Shown: positions 3,219 to 37,396 of the stretch, one piece after another
Layout of the letters: each line of letters begins with the position of its first letter
How positions within the stretch are numbered: the first letter of the stretch is position 1
IMG/VR virus record: IMGVR_UViG_3300031237_000266
Location: 1-38,355 of that record
Length of the DNA: 38,355 nucleotides
Reading direction: 5' to 3' (one strand)
DNA from: a virus
The notes under the pieces: model-generated
What the model saw: the letters and a program-made list of their open reading frames with translations, nothing else
Databases searched by the model: none
Told to the model about the DNA's origin: nothing
Translations under genes and position numbers: made by a program

Positions 3219-3580
3219 GGGTACTTCCTTTGGGGTGGTTGCTTTCCCAATGCCGCCTCATCGAAGCGGCATCAGTGAAAACTTCCATCTCCGCCATGCG
3301 CATCGCCGGAGTCTTCTCTCTGGCCGGGTCAGCAACTGGCATCTTCCCGGCTGGCTTGCATGGCTTCGCGTGCTGGCATGTGGCAGCACGGCAGGTTCCA
3401 GAGCCTGCATGGGGAGCGAAATTTCTTGCCCGCGCTGTACGGCTGCTGCCGGATCGCTCCGCGGGGTTCCTTGATTGTTAAAGAGCAGTCCCTTTTGAGG
3501 GCTTGGCGAAGTGCTTCTCGCCTCGTTGCAACCAAGCTACAACGCAAAATTGTAGATTGCAAGCATGAGTTGTAATTCTG
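3219..3580 (-). promoter_or_regulatory. Left operon leader with boxA-like nut element
   Basis: On the minus strand, positions 3487-3475 read TGCTCTTTAACAA, identical to the bacterial rrn boxA that recruits NusB/S10. It lies about 50 nt downstream of the left operators, where lambda carries nutL. Just beyond is CGGA-GCGA-TCCG (about 3451-3462), a short hairpin with a GNRA loop that could act like boxB. A 7-bp hairpin (ATGCCGC 3250-3256, GCGGCAT 3266-3272) lies near the TerB-like gene. An antitermination role is inferred. No promoter hexamers are assigned with confidence. Confidence 0.6.
3538..3574. promoter_or_regulatory. Left operator pair (OL-like)
   Basis: Two 17-bp sites match the repressor-region operators at 6368-6442. 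Site 1 is TACAAC-gcaaa-ATTGTA (3538-3554). Site 2 is TGCAAG-catga-GTTGTA (3558-3574), centred 20 bp away. By comparison with lambda they should let CI and Cro control the promoter of the leftward operon whose first gene starts at 3218. A TTGCAA on the minus strand overlaps site 2 and could be a -35. Confidence 0.75.
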
Positions 3581-3585
3581 AATAG

Positions 3586-3609
3586 TAAAAAGCCCGCACA
3601 TGGCGGGCT
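3586..3609 (-). terminator. Intrinsic terminator after the DUF1654 gene
   Basis: AGCCCGC (3591-3597) and GCGGGCT (3603-3609) form a 7-bp stem with a 5-nt loop. Read leftward it is followed by a run of T (TTTTTAC), so it terminates transcription from the DUF1654 gene before it reaches the left operators. Confidence 0.85.
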
Positions 3610-3629
3610 CTTCTTTCGGTAAGGCGCGA

Positions 3630-3893
3630 TCAACTATCGGCCGGATCAGCCCTCCAGGCCAGATGCATGCTCCCATCGCTGCGCGGCGTCAGAGTCACGC
3701 CGTCGGAATCACGGATCTCCTCCATCAGCCTGTCCCAGTCACTCTGAATCTCATCGGGCTGCCGACTGATCACAGCCTGTCGCTCAACCAGGGCGCGGGG
3801 CGTGCTGATGACGCCCTGGATGCGGCGGGCCAGGCGTTCATAGCCGGAGATTTGGGTTTGATGGGTGACAGCGCGAGCGCGTGGCTTTGCCAT
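3630..3893 (-). CDS. DUF1654 family protein, SOS-controlled
   Basis: 87 aa. The core SGYERLARRIQGVISTPRALVERQAVISRQPDEIQSDWDRLMEEIRDSDGVTLTPRSDGSMHLAW matches the Pseudomonas-specific DUF1654 family: YERL...R, then W-RL-EEI, then VTL--R-DGS. Its biochemical function is unknown. Start ATG 3891-3893 has AAGGAAG upstream. A perfect CTG-N10-CAG LexA box (3917-3932) sits 24 nt before the start, so expression should rise with DNA damage. The gene is monocistronic and ends at an intrinsic terminator. Its place between the left operators and hicAB suggests a role in induction or immunity. Confidence 0.85.
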   Translation of the reverse strand: MAKPRARAVTHQTQISGYERLARRIQGVISTPRALVERQAVISRQPDEIQSDWDRLMEEIRDSDGVTLTPRSDGSMHLAWRADPADS

Positions 3894-3916
3894 ATGACTT
3901 CCTTACTTCTGCTTAG

Positions 3917-3932
3917 CTGTATAAAAATACAG
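3917..3932 (-). promoter_or_regulatory. LexA (SOS) box upstream of DUF1654 gene
   Basis: CTGTATAAAAATACAG is a perfect palindromic-type LexA site (CTG-N10-CAG with TAT...ATA flanks). It lies just upstream of the leftward DUF1654 gene and probably overlaps its promoter. Confidence 0.9.
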
Positions 3933-4026
3933 TACACATGGCTCGCGGCTGCATCAAGCGAAACGAGCGGATGCGACTTTGGTATGTAAATTTTTCAAGC
4001 AGACGGCGCAGGCGCGGCAGAAAACT

Positions 4027-27419: not shown

Positions 27420-28172
27420 ATGGACCAGCACCTACTCGACGCCATCCGCGCCCATGCGGCGCAGGAGTACCCGCGCGAATGCTGCGGGCTGATCGTGTCC
27501 ACGGCGGCAGGCGAGCAGTACATCCCATGCCGCAACCTGGCCGGCGAGCCGAACGACCGGTTCGAACTGGCCCCCGAGGACTATGCGGACGCCGAGGACC
27601 TGGGGCCGATCGTCGGCATCGTGCACTCCCACCCGGACGCCACCAGCCGCGCCTCGCCGGCGGACGTGGCGCTGTGCAACGCCGGCGACGTGCCCTGGTA
27701 CATCCTCAGCTGGCCGGAGGGCGACCTCAACGTCATCCGGCCGGCGCCAGTGCCGCTGCTGGGCCGCGACTTCGTGCACGGCGTGCAGGACTGCTGGCAG
27801 GTCTGCGCCGACTGGTACCGGCGGGAATGGGGCCTGCAGTTCCCCGATTACGACCGGTCCGACCTCTGGTGGGAGAATCCGAAGAGCGAAAGCCTGTACG
27901 AGGACCGTTACGAGGCCGCCGGCTTCTACCGCGTCGACACGCCCCGGCGCGGCGACTTGATCGTCATGCGGGTCGGCCGCACGGCCCACCCGAACCATGC
28001 CGGTCTCTACCTGGGAAGCGACCCGAGCCTGCCTGGAGAGTCATCGCAGGTATTCGGCCAGGGGCCGTTCCTGCTGCATCACCTGTACGGCCGACGCTCG
28101 GAGATCATCGTATTCGGCGGGAGCTGGTGGGAGAGGGCGGAGCTGATCCTGCGGCACGGGGAGGCACGGTAG
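27420..28172 (+). CDS. Tail protein K: JAMM plus NlpC/P60 peptidase
   Basis: 250 aa with two domains. The N-terminal JAB/MPN metalloprotease has Glu20 and His69-x-His71...Ser79-x2-Asp82 (HSHPDATSRASPAD). The C-terminal NlpC/P60 domain has catalytic Cys125 (DCWQVCADWY) and His193 (HPNHAGLYLG). This fusion is the lambda gpK architecture. It acts in tail tip assembly and may cut peptidoglycan at infection. After it, the cargo region interrupts the usual K-I order. Confidence 0.93.
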   Translation: MDQHLLDAIRAHAAQEYPRECCGLIVSTAAGEQYIPCRNLAGEPNDRFELAPEDYADAEDLGPIVGIVHSHPDATSRASPADVALCNAGDVPWYILSWPEGDLNVIRPAPVPLLGRDFVHGVQDCWQVCADWYRREWGLQFPDYDRSDLWWENPKSESLYEDRYEAAGFYRVDTPRRGDLIVMRVGRTAHPNHAGLYLGSDPSLPGESSQVFGQGPFLLHHLYGRRSEIIVFGGSWWERAELILRHGEAR

Positions 28173-28184
28173 GCGCTGGGTTTT

Positions 28185-28207
28185 GGTGATGGCGGTTTGG
28201 TATTCTC
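28185..28207 (+). promoter_or_regulatory. Shared cargo-gene promoter-like element, copy A
   Basis: GGTGATGGCGGTTTGGTA followed by TTCTC matches copies B, C and D. The likely -10 is TATTCT (28201-28206) with TGG before it. It lies 23 nt upstream of the first lipoprotein gene. Confidence 0.65.
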
Positions 28208-28229
28208 GACTCTTTAATGGGAGGGAACC

Positions 28230-28643
28230 ATGCGTAAAACCATCACTTTCGCTTTGCTTGCAGCCCTAGTAAGTGGTTGCGATATCAAGGTTTCGCAAGG
28301 CGTGGCCGTAGATAAAGGGAAAGACATGCTGGCATCGACACTGAAAGATCCAAGCTCTGCGAAGTTCGGCGATGCATTCTTTGTTGAAAGCAAAATGGTA
28401 GGAGATCGCCATTACGGCTTCCTGTGCGGTCGAGTGAACGCAAAAAACTCGTTTGGAGCCTATGCCGGAATGTCGCGGTTCGTGGCAGACCTTGAGTACA
28501 CGGAAAGCGGAAGCTTCTCCATGAACAATGTGCTGCTTGAGCAGGGAGTGCTGGCCAAGTCTGGAAAAGATGGGTTTTCCATTTTCGAGACAGAGCATTG
28601 GGCTGCGAAATGTACCAAGCCAGGAGCAATGGCCGCTAAGTAA
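28230..28643 (+). CDS. Exported lipoprotein cargo gene, 137 aa
   Basis: A lipoprotein signal MRKTITFALLAALVSGC ends in lipobox LVSGC (acylated Cys17). The mature part contains LKDPSSAKFGDAFFVESKM, then GFLCGRVNAKNSFGAYAGMSRF, which is shared with the protein at 30447-30803. The DP-SAKF and CG-VN-KN--G-Y-G motifs mark a family of small envelope proteins with unknown function. GGGAGGGAACC precedes the ATG. Placement behind its own promoter inside the tail genes marks it as a moron that could be expressed in the lysogen. Confidence 0.8.
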   Translation: MRKTITFALLAALVSGCDIKVSQGVAVDKGKDMLASTLKDPSSAKFGDAFFVESKMVGDRHYGFLCGRVNAKNSFGAYAGMSRFVADLEYTESGSFSMNNVLLEQGVLAKSGKDGFSIFETEHWAAKCTKPGAMAAK

Positions 28644-28720
28644 CTCCAAGCCTTCCAGCAACAGACCGCCTACCTAGCGCAGGCTTTTAATTTCAGCAAC
28701 TCGGCCAAGTGCAGGGTTTC

Positions 28721-28743
28721 TGTGCTGGCGTTTTGGTACAGTC
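28721..28743 (+). promoter_or_regulatory. Shared cargo-gene promoter-like element, copy B
   Basis: TGTGCTGGCGTTTTGGTA followed by CAGTC. The likely -10 is TACAGT (28737-28742). It is the best conserved copy together with C and lies 22 nt upstream of the second lipoprotein gene. Confidence 0.7.
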
Positions 28744-28764
28744 TCCGAAACCAAGGAGACAACC

Positions 28765-29109
28765 ATGCGGAAAATCATCACGGCACTGGCTCTTGCTGCC
28801 CTTGCTGGGTGTACGGCGACCATGACTGAAACCCGTCAGAAGGGGCCTGCAAAGGTGTTTTCATCCAGTGTTCCAGCAAGAGAACTTGCTGAATGCATCA
28901 GAGATACATGGCAAAGCCAATCAATGTTCGGGAATAACACTGACTCGTACATGGATACTCGTGGCAGTAGCTATGTCGTAAGAACAGTTGGCGCCGAACA
29001 ATTCGCTGATATTTCACCAGCTAAAGACGGAGCAAAGGTCAGTTATTACCAGGCGAGCAATACCTGGATCAGTAGAAAACGTTTGATCAGCCTGCAAAGC
29101 TGTCTGTAG
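28765..29109 (+). CDS. Exported lipoprotein cargo gene, 114 aa
   Basis: The signal MRKIITALALAALAGC ends in lipobox LAGC (Cys16) and its first residues resemble the 28230 protein. The mature part (SSSVPARELAECIRDTWQSQSMFGNN..., SSYVVRTVGAEQFADISPAKDG) ends in a Cys. It has no known enzyme motif but resembles small periplasmic lipoproteins with an ELAECI motif. CAAGGAG precedes the ATG. A hairpin and T tract follow. Confidence 0.75.
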   Translation: MRKIITALALAALAGCTATMTETRQKGPAKVFSSSVPARELAECIRDTWQSQSMFGNNTDSYMDTRGSSYVVRTVGAEQFADISPAKDGAKVSYYQASNTWISRKRLISLQSCL

Positions 29110-29126
29110 TCGAGAAATAATTATTG

Positions 29127-29149
29127 GAATCCGCTTCGGCGGGTTTTTT
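29127..29149 (+). terminator. Weak intrinsic terminator after second lipoprotein gene
   Basis: CCGC-TTCG-GCGG (29131-29142) with flanking pairs is followed by a T6 tract (29144-29149). The stem is short but has the stable TTCG loop. Confidence 0.55.
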
Positions 29150-29171
29150 GTGCTGGCGTTTTGGTGTAGTG
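29149..29171 (+). promoter_or_regulatory. Orphan promoter-like element, copy C
   Basis: The first 18 bases (TGTGCTGGCGTTTTGGTG) differ from copy B only at the last one. Then comes TAGTG instead of CAGTC. No rightward gene follows; the opposite-strand antirepressor ends 32 nt away. It may be a remnant of a cargo gene displaced by the antirepressor cassette. Confidence 0.6.
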
Positions 29172-29202
29172 CCGCCGGAGATGACCGGCGGCAGGCCTAC
29201 GG

Positions 29203-30108
29203 TTACGGCTTTATGCCATCAGCTATCATGGCATAGCCGCCATCGGCGCACATGTCGCGGCAGATCTGGTAAATCTCGGCGCGGCGTTTGTCCAGGCGGG
29301 CGAACCCAAAGCTAGCTTCTCCAAGATGCTCTTCCAAATTCATCAGCGGCTTCGATTCAAGCAGCCGAGCCGTGCCTTTCAGACAGATGTGCTTGGTTAT
29401 CTGGAGAGCATGATAGTAATGGCTCATGAATGAGTAGAGCGAGCTGACCTCGTATTGATCCAGCGTCAGAGTTCCATTCTTCTGCTCTTCCTTCGGCATC
29501 CATTCACCTTCCATGGGCAATGAGTACGAGCCGATGAAGTTGCGGGCCGCATCGAGCTGGCTGGCCGGAATGTCCTCGGCGCTTACGACGCTGAAGGCTT
29601 TGTGCACCTGGGACCAGACGTGCATCTTGGCGCGCTGGCGGGACTTGACCGGTAGGTGGCGCACCTTGCCATCGAGTACGGCGGCCAGGCAGCGGAAGCC
29701 ATCAGTGCCGAGGGTTTGGTTCAGGACTGTTTCCACAGTGCGGTCGTCATGGCGAGCAGCAATGCCATCGTTCCAGTAGGACCACAGCACATCATCGCAC
29801 TCGTTCTGGTAGGCGATGATCCCATCGCGCAATTCAGGGCGAACCTTGTTCGGGTGGATCGACATAAGCCAGCCAGGAAGTTTGCGGAGGGGGAGGCAAG
29901 TCATTTCGCGCTGCTTTCCGTCTTCGGCAACCATCAAGATTTCCTTGATGGTTGATGCAAGGCGTCCAGAGGAGAGCTTGGCATGCTGACCTTGCCAGCT
30001 CAGGCCCATGCCTTCTGCAACAGGCTTCATAGGAACGAACGGCTGGCCTTCATGGCTGACCAGAAGCAGCTTGGATTGACGGAACGGAACGATGGTTGCG
30101 GCTTGCAT
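29203..30108 (-). CDS. P22-type antirepressor (Ant-like)
   Basis: 301 aa on the strand opposite to the late operon. The N-terminal ~120 residues (VPFRQSKLLLVSHEGQPFVPMKPVAEGMGLSWQGQHAKLSS...MTCLPLRKLPGWLMSIHPNKVRPELRDGIIAYQNECDDVLW) are the P22 antirepressor N-terminal domain. The C-terminus (LDKRRAEIYQICRDMCADGGYAMIADG) resembles P22_AR_C/ORF6C ends. Such proteins inactivate the repressors of other phages. Upstream lies a C4-type antisense RNA leader, so expression is kept off in the lysogen. AAGGGG precedes the ATG. Confidence 0.9.
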   Translation of the reverse strand: MQAATIVPFRQSKLLLVSHEGQPFVPMKPVAEGMGLSWQGQHAKLSSGRLASTIKEILMVAEDGKQREMTCLPLRKLPGWLMSIHPNKVRPELRDGIIAYQNECDDVLWSYWNDGIAARHDDRTVETVLNQTLGTDGFRCLAAVLDGKVRHLPVKSRQRAKMHVWSQVHKAFSVVSAEDIPASQLDAARNFIGSYSLPMEGEWMPKEEQKNGTLTLDQYEVSSLYSFMSHYYHALQITKHICLKGTARLLESKPLMNLEEHLGEASFGFARLDKRRAEIYQICRDMCADGGYAMIADGIKP

Positions 30109-30133
30109 GATGGAACCCCTTTGCTGGTTTGGA

Positions 30134-30170
30134 GTTCGCCGCCATTGTTCTCACGCTAATGGAGGCGAAC
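30134..30170 (-). promoter_or_regulatory. C4-target complement near the antirepressor start
   Basis: GTTCGCCGCCATT (30134-30146) and AATGGAGGCGAAC (30158-30170) are complementary at 12 of 13 positions. In the C4/ant system the RNA pairs with a target beside the ant ribosome-binding site. These arms are the best candidate for that pair (a'/a). Confidence 0.6.
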
Positions 30171-30254
30171 CGTGCGCGGGGTGAGAAACCGGGTGCAAAG
30201 GGAACCCGGCCAGGCCGAAGCCTGCCCACGCACGGCCCGCCATAACGCGGGCAC
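30155..30254 (-). ncRNA. C4-type antisense RNA
   Basis: Read leftward, it has three stem-loops in the order typical of phage C4 RNA. Stem 1 is 30235-30252 (GCCCGC/GCGGGC around GTTATG). Stem 2 is 30211-30224 (CAGGC/GCCTG with tetraloop TTCG). Stem 3 is 30189-30209 (CCGGGT/ACCCGG). A long-range stem (30170-30176 with 30229-30235) encloses stems 2 and 3. The sequence GTGCCCGCGTTATGGCGGGC is nearly that of P1/P22 C4. C4 blocks antirepressor translation by antisense pairing. End points are approximate. Confidence 0.8.
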
Positions 30255-30274
30255 AAAAAAAACGCCTTACGGCG
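30255..30274 (-). terminator. Intrinsic terminator upstream of C4 RNA
   Basis: On the minus strand CGCC-GTAA-GGCG (30263-30274) is followed by eight T (30262-30255). It lies between the leftward promoter and the C4 stem-loops, so it may attenuate or divide the leader transcript. Confidence 0.75.
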
Positions 30275-30338
30275 CCGTGCGCCTTTGCTTGATCCGGGTT
30301 CTCACGCCCGGCCGCTGAATTTGCAGCGGCAATGGGAG

Positions 30339-30366
30339 ACTAGACCAACATCGGGATAGGCGTCAA
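30339..30366 (-). promoter_or_regulatory. Leftward promoter for C4 RNA and antirepressor
   Basis: On the minus strand, TTGACG (30366-30361), a 16-bp spacer and TCTAGT (30344-30339) make a plausible sigma-70 promoter. A hairpin (GCCGCTG 30311-30317 with its complement before 30331) and a repeated GCGTGAGAAC (30306-30297 and 30156-30147) lie downstream. Confidence 0.6.
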
Positions 30367-30397
30367 TGCCTACGGCGTGACGGCAAGGGAGCGACTT

Positions 30398-30420
30398 GGT
30401 GATGGCGTTTTGATAGAGTC
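30398..30420 (+). promoter_or_regulatory. Shared cargo-gene promoter-like element, copy D
   Basis: GGTGATGGCGTTTTGATA followed by GAGTC. The likely -10 is TAGAGT (30414-30419). It lies 26 nt upstream of the third exported protein gene and faces away from the antirepressor. Confidence 0.65.
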
Positions 30421-30446: not shown

Positions 30447-30803
30447 ATGAAAAATATTACTTTTGTTGCATTTATTGCTGCCTGTTTAATTCCTACCATA
30501 TCCTATGCAAAGGACTTCACGCCGGCTCAAAAGAAAAATATTGAAGATGCAGTGAAAGAAAAATTGATAGATCCTGATAGCGCAAAGTTCAAGTTTCCTA
30601 CATATAAAGGCGGTCTTTTTTATTGTGGACTTGTTAACTCAAAAAATAGATATGGTGGCTATGCGGGGTTTTCTGTTTTTCAAGTTGCAGCCATGAGCGG
30701 AGAGTCTGGATCAACTAGTTTTTATGTCCTTGGTGTTGGTGATGGGGATTCAGGAAATGAGGCTCTAAAGACCACCTGTGCCGAGCATGGCTATACATTT
30801 TAA
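30447..30803 (+). CDS. Exported small protein, AT-rich paralogue of the 28230 lipoprotein
   Basis: 118 aa with a Sec signal MKNITFVAFIAACLIPTISYA, probably cut before KDF. The mature part has LIDPDSAKFKFP and FYCGLVNSKNRYGGYAGFSVF, aligned with the 28230 protein (DP-SAKF, CG-VN-KN--GGY-G). It lacks a lipobox. The gene is clearly AT-rich (runs such as aaaaatattac and many A/T third positions) among GC-rich neighbours, which suggests recent transfer. A terminator follows. Function is unknown. Confidence 0.8.
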   Translation: MKNITFVAFIAACLIPTISYAKDFTPAQKKNIEDAVKEKLIDPDSAKFKFPTYKGGLFYCGLVNSKNRYGGYAGFSVFQVAAMSGESGSTSFYVLGVGDGDSGNEALKTTCAEHGYTF

Positions 30804-30826: not shown

Positions 30827-30848
30827 AACCGCCTTCGGGCGGTTTTTT
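30827..30848 (+). terminator. Intrinsic terminator after third cargo gene
   Basis: AACCGCC (30827-30833), loop TTCG, GGCGGTT (30838-30844), then TTTT. It insulates the cargo gene from tail gene I. Confidence 0.9.
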
Positions 30849-30865: not shown

Positions 30866-31504
30866 ATGACAGCTGTAAACTATCAGCCGATGACCATCAT
30901 CCTCTTGTCTGGAAGCCTGGCAAAAGCCTTCGGTCGCAAACATCGGCGCCATCTCGACAGCGGTACTACGCAGGAGGCATTCCGTGCACTGAAGCACACG
31001 CTCAAAGGTTTCGAGGCCTTCATTCGGGATTCGGAGAAGAAGGGGCTGCGCTTCGCTATCTTCCGCAACCGCAAGAATGTCGGCGAGGAAGAGCTCGGTC
31101 TTGCTGGCACTCAAGAAATTCGCATCGTCCCGGTGATCACTGGAAGCAAGAGGGGTGGCATCTTCCAGACCGTGCTCGGCGTTGCGCTGATTGCAACGGC
31201 CTCATACTTTACCGGTGGATTGGCTGCTGGAGGAACGGGCCTATTGGGAGCGGGGGCTGGAGTTGGCTGGACTGCGGCAGCTGGCGCCGGTTTTTCTTTG
31301 GCCATCGGCGGAGTAGTCCAAATGGCCTTCCCCCAAGCCAAGGGCCTCAGCTCGAGCGCCGCACCCGAGAACAAGCCTTCCTATGCATTCGGCGGCCCGG
31401 TCAACACCGTAGCCCAGGGCAACCCGGTCGGCGTGCTGTACGGCAAGCGCCGGATCGGCGGCGCGATCATCTCGGCGGGCATCTACGCAGAGGATCAAAT
31501 GTAG
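30866..31504 (+). CDS. Tail assembly protein I
   Basis: 212 aa. MTIILLSGSLAKAFGRKHRRHLDSGTTQEAFRALKHTLKGFEAFIRDSEKKGLRFAIF is the ubiquitin-like N-terminus of lambda gpI. A Gly/Ala-rich hydrophobic region (about 100-150) and NPVGVLYGKRRIGGAIISAGIYAEDQ close the protein. It is needed for tail tip assembly with K, L and J. GGAGAAAAGT precedes ATG 30866. Confidence 0.9.
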   Translation: MTAVNYQPMTIILLSGSLAKAFGRKHRRHLDSGTTQEAFRALKHTLKGFEAFIRDSEKKGLRFAIFRNRKNVGEEELGLAGTQEIRIVPVITGSKRGGIFQTVLGVALIATASYFTGGLAAGGTGLLGAGAGVGWTAAAGAGFSLAIGGVVQMAFPQAKGLSSSAAPENKPSYAFGGPVNTVAQGNPVGVLYGKRRIGGAIISAGIYAEDQM

Positions 31505-36070: not shown

Positions 36071-36616
36071 ATGTCCATCACCGAGCAGCAACTGCTGCAG
36101 ATCATGCCCAACGCCGGCCCTCGTGCCGGCGTTTTTGTGCCGGTTCTCAACGCGGCCATGAAGCGCTGGCAGATCGATACGCCCCGGCGCGTGGCGGCCT
36201 TCCTCGCCCAGGTCGGCCACGAGTCGAACCAGCTGCGCAACACCCGGGAGCTCTGGGGGCCGACGCCGGCCCAGGCACGCTACGACCTGCGCACCGACCT
36301 CGGCAATACGCCGCAGCCAGACGGTGACGGCCAGCGCTACCGGGGCCGCGGCCTGATCCAGATCACCGGGCGGGCCAACTACGCGGCGGTGAGCATCGCC
36401 CTGTTCGGCGACGACCGCCTGCTCAAAACGCCCGAGCTGCTCGAGCAGCCGGAGTGGGCGGCGGAATCCGCTGGTTGGTTCTGGTCGACCAACGGTCTAA
36501 ACCGGTTGGCCGATGCCGGTCAGTTCGAGGCGATCACCAGGCGGATCAATGGTGGTTTGAATGGGCAGGATGACCGGCTAGCCCTTTGGGGTAGGGCGAA
36601 GGAGGTGATGGCATGA
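36071..36616 (+). CDS. Endolysin, glycoside hydrolase family 19
   Basis: 181 aa without a signal peptide. The chitinase-like GH19 fold shows in RVAAFLAQVGHESNQLRNTREL, with acids Glu51 (GHES) and Glu60. YRGRGLIQITGRANYAAVSIALFGD and AAESAGWFWSTNGLNRLAD follow. It cleaves peptidoglycan glycan strands after the holin opens the membrane. GGAG precedes the ATG and the stop overlaps the Rz start (ATGA). Confidence 0.92.
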   Translation: MSITEQQLLQIMPNAGPRAGVFVPVLNAAMKRWQIDTPRRVAAFLAQVGHESNQLRNTRELWGPTPAQARYDLRTDLGNTPQPDGDGQRYRGRGLIQITGRANYAAVSIALFGDDRLLKTPELLEQPEWAAESAGWFWSTNGLNRLADAGQFEAITRRINGGLNGQDDRLALWGRAKEVMA

Positions 36617-37155: not shown

Positions 37156-37318
37156 GATTGCCAGGACGGGCGATGAGGGAGCCGCCGCAATGGGCGACTT
37201 ACTGTAGGAAAATACAGCGCTAAGTTATTGATATTTCGTGCTGTATGGGCTGATTCTTTCTCTGCGTTATTTTACTTGTTTTTCTATAAGAATCAGTATG
37301 TTGCATGTGTTTCGCTAT
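37156..37318 (+). promoter_or_regulatory. SOS-box region between lysis genes and attachment site
   Basis: No convincing gene is seen. A LexA site CTGTAGGAAAATACAG lies at 37202-37217 (CTG-N10-CAG). A short AT-rich tract (37226-37310) follows up to the tRNA remnant. Only ATGGGCGACTTACTG-TAG (37191) could encode a tiny peptide. In the excised circle, the phage left end would lie beyond this box, so SOS-driven transcription could enter the left-end genes. That is an inference. Confidence 0.75.
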
Positions 37319-37367
37319 CACCTTGACATGGTGGGGGTCGTTGGTTCGAGTCCAATTGTGCCTACCA
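37319..37367 (+). other. 3' part of tRNA-Val(GAC): prophage attachment site (right)
   Basis: The 49 nt from CACCTTGACATGGTGG through GTTGGTTCGAGTCC to CCA match the anticodon arm, variable loop, T arm and acceptor 3' strand of tRNA-Val with anticodon GAC. The 5' half is absent: upstream sequence (TTTCGCTAT) does not form D or acceptor arms. Such a remnant marks one end of an element that integrated into the tRNA gene. The intact tRNA should be at the other end, beyond position 1. Confidence 0.9.
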
Positions 37368-37396
37368 AACAAAACCCGCAGCTGGCGGGGCTTAGA

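Follow-up and report, generated by a model that had tools for sequence, protein, structure and literature searches.

A short element repeated four times in a 38,355-nt stretch of viral DNA (IMG/VR record IMGVR_UViG_3300031237_000266, positions 1 to 38,355; hereafter the window), in the region between the genes for tail assembly proteins K and I, is best explained as the start signal shared by one family of moron cassettes, each with its accessory (cargo) gene, in Pseudomonas tailed phages. An extended -10 promoter of the sigma70 type (TGnTAnnnT, lacking a -35) would sit directly after the terminator of the upstream neighbor, and a cassette would consist of a terminator hairpin, the sequence GGTGCTGGCG..TGnTAnnnT, about 20 nt containing GGGAGGG, and the cargo gene. 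From this joint, host RNA polymerase would express the cargo without dependence on the late tail operon, for instance in the prophage. Cargo would be inserted, deleted and swapped by general homologous recombination between joints, possible because every cassette starts with the same 50-100 bp. At the K-I site of the window, this would leave three cassettes, one orphan joint that has neither cargo nor -10, and a reversed antirepressor gene. The probability of these combined steps (cassette promoter, recombination in the joint, prophage expression) is put at roughly 0.75. Taken singly, the assignment of the element as the cassette promoter is firm on sequence grounds, recombination within the joint is likely, and a service in prophage expression is inferred.

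In a search of the whole window with the pattern GTGMTGGCGKTTTGRTA, allowing up to 3 mismatches, matches were found at 28186, 28722, 29150 and 30399, all on the plus strand; a fifth match, at 36123, has 3 mismatches. Shuffled sequence is expected to give 0.32 matches, and five were reached in no shuffle. The four copies that an earlier note had placed at 28185, 28721, 29149 and 30398 do exist, its coordinates being about 1 nt low. Scored with a weight matrix, they reach 30-36 bits, compared with 7.8 for the next best plus-strand site of the window and 16.6 for the best site among 200 simulated windows, figures that are partly circular in that the 28 distinct sequences used for training include three copies from the window, along with 25 from other loci. 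Copy 1 (28186..28206, plus strand; GTGATGGCGGTTTGGTATTCT), copy 2 (28722..28742, plus strand; GTGCTGGCGTTTTGGTACAGT, identical to the commonest form in other phages) and copy 4 (30399..30419, plus strand; GTGATGGCGTTTTGATAGAGT) have TGG or TGA before TAnnnT, and the last base of TAnnnT lies 23, 22 and 27 nt, respectively, from the start codons of the genes at 28230, 28765 and 30447, close to the 22-26 nt upstream of small exported-protein genes that had been claimed. Copy 3 (29150..29170, plus strand; GTGCTGGCGTTTTGGTGTAGT) is an orphan, with a -10 (GGTGTAGT) that reads TGTAGT rather than TAnnnT (TA to TG) and no gene after it, so that the proposal of four copies serving the cargo region stands for three of them. 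Orphan joints with an altered -10 and no cargo are also present in other phages (at 3871 in locus L275, 31 in L157 and 1520 in L158), and may be remnants left where cargo was lost, or may give rise to small RNAs.

The constant part of the element is kTGnTGGCGnTTTG(G/A)TAnnnT, the right end of which has the form of an extended -10 promoter (TGnTAnnnT, with no -35 found). The TGn preceding the -10 hexamer is invariant in the collected set, an invariance that was partly imposed by the search, yet it is also recovered with a pattern covering the left half only. In most relatives the element is fused on its upstream side to a hairpin, CCCAGCC-loop-GCTGGG with TTTTGG-TGCTGGCG after it, which appears to be intrinsic-terminator-like, its T-run running into the promoter; the arms covary, with columns 8 and 26 forming G-C in 11 sequences and A-U in 7. 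Within the window, the terminator of cargo 2 (29131..29149, plus strand; CCGCTTCGGCGGGTTTTTT, from sequence and fold) abuts copy 3, the two making up a predicted terminator-promoter joint. The leader after the element is often CCCGGCC or CGGGCTTTCT, and then GGGAGGG. Whereas the earlier note had envisaged a repeated promoter, ribosome-binding site and signal peptide, the signal peptide is not included and the promoter does not stand alone: the shared unit is better described as a putative joint of terminator, promoter and ribosome-binding site, about 50-100 bp long.

That the two sides of the joint are conserved separately is indicated by a left-half scan, in which the pattern comprised the hairpin arm and GGTGCTGGC with the -10 left out, together with the variable spacing between GGTGCTGGC and TGnTAnnnT, which is anywhere between 3 and 7 nt in the relatives L267, L273, L274, L279 and the plasmid-borne L281. 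Nearly all left-half matches with a full hairpin run on into TGnTAnnnT and a start codon, the exceptions being L268, L275 and L278. When IMG/VR was scanned with no start codon in the pattern, a start codon followed 26-30 nt downstream in all 11 instances that had the hairpin or something close to it. Where homologues of the window cargo are without the strict element, another TGnTAnAnT is often present at that place, e.g. GTGCTACAGTCCCGCC before phrog_914 genes, and this alternative extended -10 supports the promoter reading.

Scans of IMG/VR, INPHARED and Pseudomonadaceae genomes place the joint in many phages. Exact and relaxed scans of IMG/VR gave more than 30 convincing instances; TGA-type matches, partly lookalikes without hairpin or cargo, were set aside as chance. 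In phage AUS531phi the joint lies between K and I, ahead of a phrog_2320 protein assigned by annotation to the SPOR superfamily, and in PS-1 it lies ahead of a 95-amino-acid protein adjoining the tape-measure gene; among Pseudomonadaceae, 17 of 398 genomes match the model at E <= 1e-4, about six of them strongly. The element, which the earlier note had wished to see sought in Pseudomonas prophages with a listing of the genes downstream, is thus present in many phages ahead of small genes that are unrelated to one another and for the most part exported. Judging from these relatives, the host of the window phage is presumably Pseudomonas. Insertions are found between K and I and just ahead of the tape-measure gene (with the single exception of L125, where the joint is upstream of L and K), so the joint is not specific to K-I but has a second common site. 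A host regulon was considered and rejected: across 84,980 bacterial genomes the exact form gave 20 matches, about the chance number, with one convincing and no enrichment, and no match was obtained in E. coli.

Recombination at the joint is suggested by about five independent phage comparisons in which homology starts or stops within about 60 nt of it, with different genes beyond. The pair L017/L028 is 97% identical from -1527 to +61 relative to the joint (1.59 kb) and then diverges, and L024/L165 is 93% identical from -1124 to +20; conversely, in L009/L021 the DNA upstream is unrelated and identity is 96% from -24 on, and phages of the AUS531phi type share homology with L077 from -55 on. The common stretch of L071/L084 runs from -127 to +60, and L009 has, compared with L028, 2 kb of extra genes directly before the joint. 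Because the homology ends vary from -55 to +61, general homologous recombination fits better than a site-specific enzyme. The swappable cargo cassettes of the earlier note thus find support in the sequence, homology starting and stopping at the shared joint as such swaps would lead one to expect; the exchange point, placed there in the promoter, would be the wider joint.

About a dozen unrelated cargo families follow the joint once chance matches are removed. They include phrog_2320, 914, 7441, 2315, 9068 (DUF4124), 29243 and 11231, as well as several proteins without a family, and comprise lipoproteins, DUF4124 proteins, zinc ribbons and membrane proteins, the majority having by eye a lipobox, signal peptide or membrane segment. 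These signal peptides, and domains such as SPOR in AUS531phi, hint at an envelope-directed role in lysogenic conversion. An antirepressor gene is situated up to about 1.5 kb upstream of the joint in 13 of 44 loci; most of these genes share its orientation, and those of L067 and L130 are reversed, as is that of the window. It is as if an immI-like module were travelling along with the cassettes. The P. aeruginosa record pHPA0271-2 has, in this order, Arc, ORF6N protein, joint, cargo and I. Antirepressor genes of the P22_AR_N, Rha or ORF6N type (Arc once) were seen upstream of the joint in L005, L019, L024, L067, L070, L077, L079, L130, L165 and L281 (3413-4982), and in both the window and L130 a reversed antirepressor gene is followed by the joint and then by a phrog_2320 gene. 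A cargo protein encoded on the minus strand of L015 (~3399-4000) fuses an MQCPxC zinc-ribbon start to a phrog_2320 domain, chaining the two families in clustering, and may be a product of recombination just past the joint.

Several related forms were observed in passing. A cousin element, TGATGGCATTTTGGTAGAGTCCGCGCCTCA, precedes a 322-amino-acid protein (MSVGKK...; without a Pfam family and, by eye, with a membrane segment at the N-terminus) in the Pseudomonadaceae loci L171, L173, L174, L175 and L179. In L094, L106, L109, L117, L122 and L131, a 275-amino-acid lipoprotein with a weak TolA_bind_tri match follows the TGATGGCGnTTTGATA form of the element, here without the usual hairpin.

The borders of the window region are tail assembly protein K upstream (27420..28172, plus strand; Pfam Prok-JAB and NLPC_P60, phrog_30) and tail assembly protein I downstream (30866..31504, plus strand; phrog_32, E=3e-67), as the earlier note had stated. 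Cargo 1 (28230..28643, plus strand) is a 137-amino-acid lipoprotein of phrog_2320 with an LKDPxSAKF...CGxVNAKNSFG domain, followed by a weak terminator-like hairpin read from the sequence (28668..28688, plus strand; GCCT-loop-AGGC-TTTT), which has a stem of just 4 bp and was unreported by the terminator scan. Cargo 2 (28765..29109, plus strand) is a 114-amino-acid lipoprotein of phrog_914; the lipoprotein-like character of both products derives from LPAM_1 matches slightly under the Pfam cut-off and from the lipoboxes VSGC and LAGC, respectively. Cargo 4 (30447..30803, plus strand), a 118-amino-acid phrog_2320 protein with, by eye only, an apparent signal peptide, is a distant homologue of cargo 1 (~32% identical) and is followed by a terminator found by the scan (30827..30848, plus strand; AACCGCCTTCGGGCGGTTTTTT). 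The three small genes have a guanine-plus-cytosine (GC) content of 0.40-0.53, compared with 0.62-0.71 in the surrounding tail genes. Between them lies the antirepressor gene (29203..30108, minus strand; P22_AR_N Pfam E=2e-45, phrog_524 E=1e-68), absent from the earlier note, which is reversed relative to the tail genes with its 3' end toward copy 3 and is separated from that copy by a perfect inverted repeat (29171..29192; GCCGCCGG-AGATGA-CCGGCGGC). With blastn of the whole region against phages, the antirepressor region alone matched. Predicted structures of cargo 1 and cargo 2 (predicted local distance difference test scores, pLDDT, of 77 and 84) gave no PDB match at E<0.001, and the best structural matches of cargo 2, a KA1 domain (E=0.017) and Flpp3 (E=0.03, TM 0.52), are not taken as evidence. 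A LexA-like box upstream of the antirepressor gene was looked for in the window and none is there; such boxes occur at 3917-3932 (CTGTATAAAAATACAG) and 37202-37217 (CTGTAGGAAAATACAG). Positions 37340-37375 resemble the 3' end of a tRNA gene (GGTTCGAGTCCAATTGTGCCTACCA), a possible attachment site, and no whole tRNA was found there by ARAGORN.

Several observations weigh against a cassette-start role and exchange at the joint. Under standard promoter-scan criteria none of the window copies has a -35/-10 pair, and in the window the hairpin is good at copy 3 alone, being partial or absent at copies 1, 2 and 4, although the sequence upstream of copy 1 (GCGCTGGGTTTT) resembles the right arm of the terminator hairpin of relatives, with the left arm absent. 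A base rate was obtained from 74 K-I loci collected through K alone, in which the gap between the two genes ranges from -18 nt (empty) to 4.8 kb, being -18 to -3 nt in L181, L182, L187, L216 and L225 and 0.4-4.8 kb in the rest. K-I is therefore a general cargo insertion site, a point in favor of the cassette reading, but the element exceeds 15 bits in only 6 of the 74 loci, which all belong to a single variant, and no reversed control reaches that score. With 68 of 74 loci lacking it, the element represents one of several families of moron joint and is not the K-I rule. Moreover, the loci with switch points were collected via the element, so that sharing of the patch is partly selection (pairs alike only upstream or only downstream are exempt), and the test for switch points covered the joint alone among gene borders, which are common points of phage recombination anyway.

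An unlikely, though not negligible, account is that the joint is no more than a good promoter-terminator inherited with some cargo and that whole morons are inserted at gene borders, with no recombination in the joint. Gene borders are often mosaic boundaries in phages, most K-I loci lack the joint, and 262 of 305 pairs have only the patch in common, as pattern selection would yield. However, pairs with 92-97% identity on one side of the joint turn to unrelated DNA on the other within 16-61 nt of it, and the common patch can cover the first codons (L017/L028, L071/L084). Alternatively, the TGnTGGCG block could be the binding site of a phage or host activator co-regulating the cargo, i.e. a phage regulon and not a recombination joint; its conservation, as strong as that of the -10 in the collected set, and the lack of a -35 would accord with this. 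The variable 3-7 nt spacing would be unusual for a fixed activator contact, however, chromosomal genes do not carry the exact form, the conservation extends into the terminator hairpin, and part of it was itself imposed by the search patterns, which together make an activator site improbable.

Tandem one-gene cassettes with a common border also recall the site of a dedicated recombinase, as in integron cassettes, but the homology ends differ (-55, -24, +16, +20, +60) with no fixed crossover point, and the cargo region of the window contains no recombinase gene, rendering this explanation very improbable. Similarly slight is the chance that the four copies arose by simple duplication in the window phage alone. 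In its favor, cargo 4 is a homologue of cargo 1 (both phrog_2320) and copy 2 matches copy 3 at 84% over 32 nt; yet cargo 2 is from another family, the identity between cargo 1 and cargo 4 is low, and the same joint before unrelated cargo in many other phages rules out duplication confined to one phage, which the earlier note had named as a possible refutation.

The recurrence of the joint and the apparent exchange of genes at it suggest how Pseudomonas phages swap accessory genes. Movement of single-gene morons with their own signals has so far been mostly inferred, and a shared joint with switch points offers a concrete, testable route. The combination of hairpin, GGTGCTGGC and TGnTAnnnT is, in addition, a search handle for uncharacterised candidate lysogenic-conversion genes, much of the cargo being predicted lipoprotein or membrane protein, as expected if it served superinfection exclusion or altered the cell envelope in some other way. 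Tentatively, at somewhat below even odds, the joint may be a currency shared among temperate Pseudomonas phages, under selection both as an insulated prophage promoter and as a recombination handle, used to trade unrelated envelope-directed genes and antirepressor genes at two fixed sites of the tail operon, and resembling the cassettes of T4-like phages while having evolved independently in lambda-like ones.

Among known systems, lambdoid morons (Hendrix, Juhala) are extra genes of deviating composition between genes that adjoin in relatives, with promoter- and terminator-like signals of their own. The cassettes described here share the insertion between genes adjoining in relatives (a K-I gap of -18 to -3 nt when empty), the lower GC content, and the terminator-like hairpins that can be read after cargo 2 and cargo 4 and, weakly, after cargo 1. 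A candidate for a promoter of their own is the conserved extended -10, whose spacing to the start codon is steady. Unlike classical morons, each with its own signals, they have one terminator-promoter joint common to unrelated cargo and occurring in tandem copies. Extended -10 sigma70 promoters are in general recognized by TGnTAnnnT without a -35, and the element differs from plain ones in its extra conserved TGnTGGCG block and fused terminator; it differs from integron-type cassettes in its variable homology ends and in the lack of a recombinase in the window cargo region. The term moron is used in PMC7067206. The start-associated sequences (SAS/ESAS) of cluster K mycobacteriophages are repeats that precede the start codons of numerous small genes and in some cases have inverted repeats (PMC3203893), and are similar as a conserved repeat ahead of small phage genes; SAS are tied to translation starts in other phages and have no terminator-promoter joint described, whereas a terminator-promoter joint is what is predicted here.

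The closest known kind is the promoter early stem-loop (PeSL) cassette of T4-like phages, a composite of promoter and terminator with shuffling at the motif (PMC4503421, and through it Arbiol 2010, doi 10.1093/gbe/evq006, and Comeau 2014, doi 10.1093/gbe/evu129). As in that account, a terminator stem-loop and promoter composite is repeated between small accessory genes, in the window clearly at copy 3 only, and genes appear to be shuffled at a shared motif, here with about five independent switch points. The setting is different, being a temperate lambda-like tail module (K, I, J) with two sites in the late tail operon and not a T4-like phage, and the predicted extended -10 promoter sets the joint apart from PeSLs by description only. 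The joint works like PeSLs and yet is not one of them.

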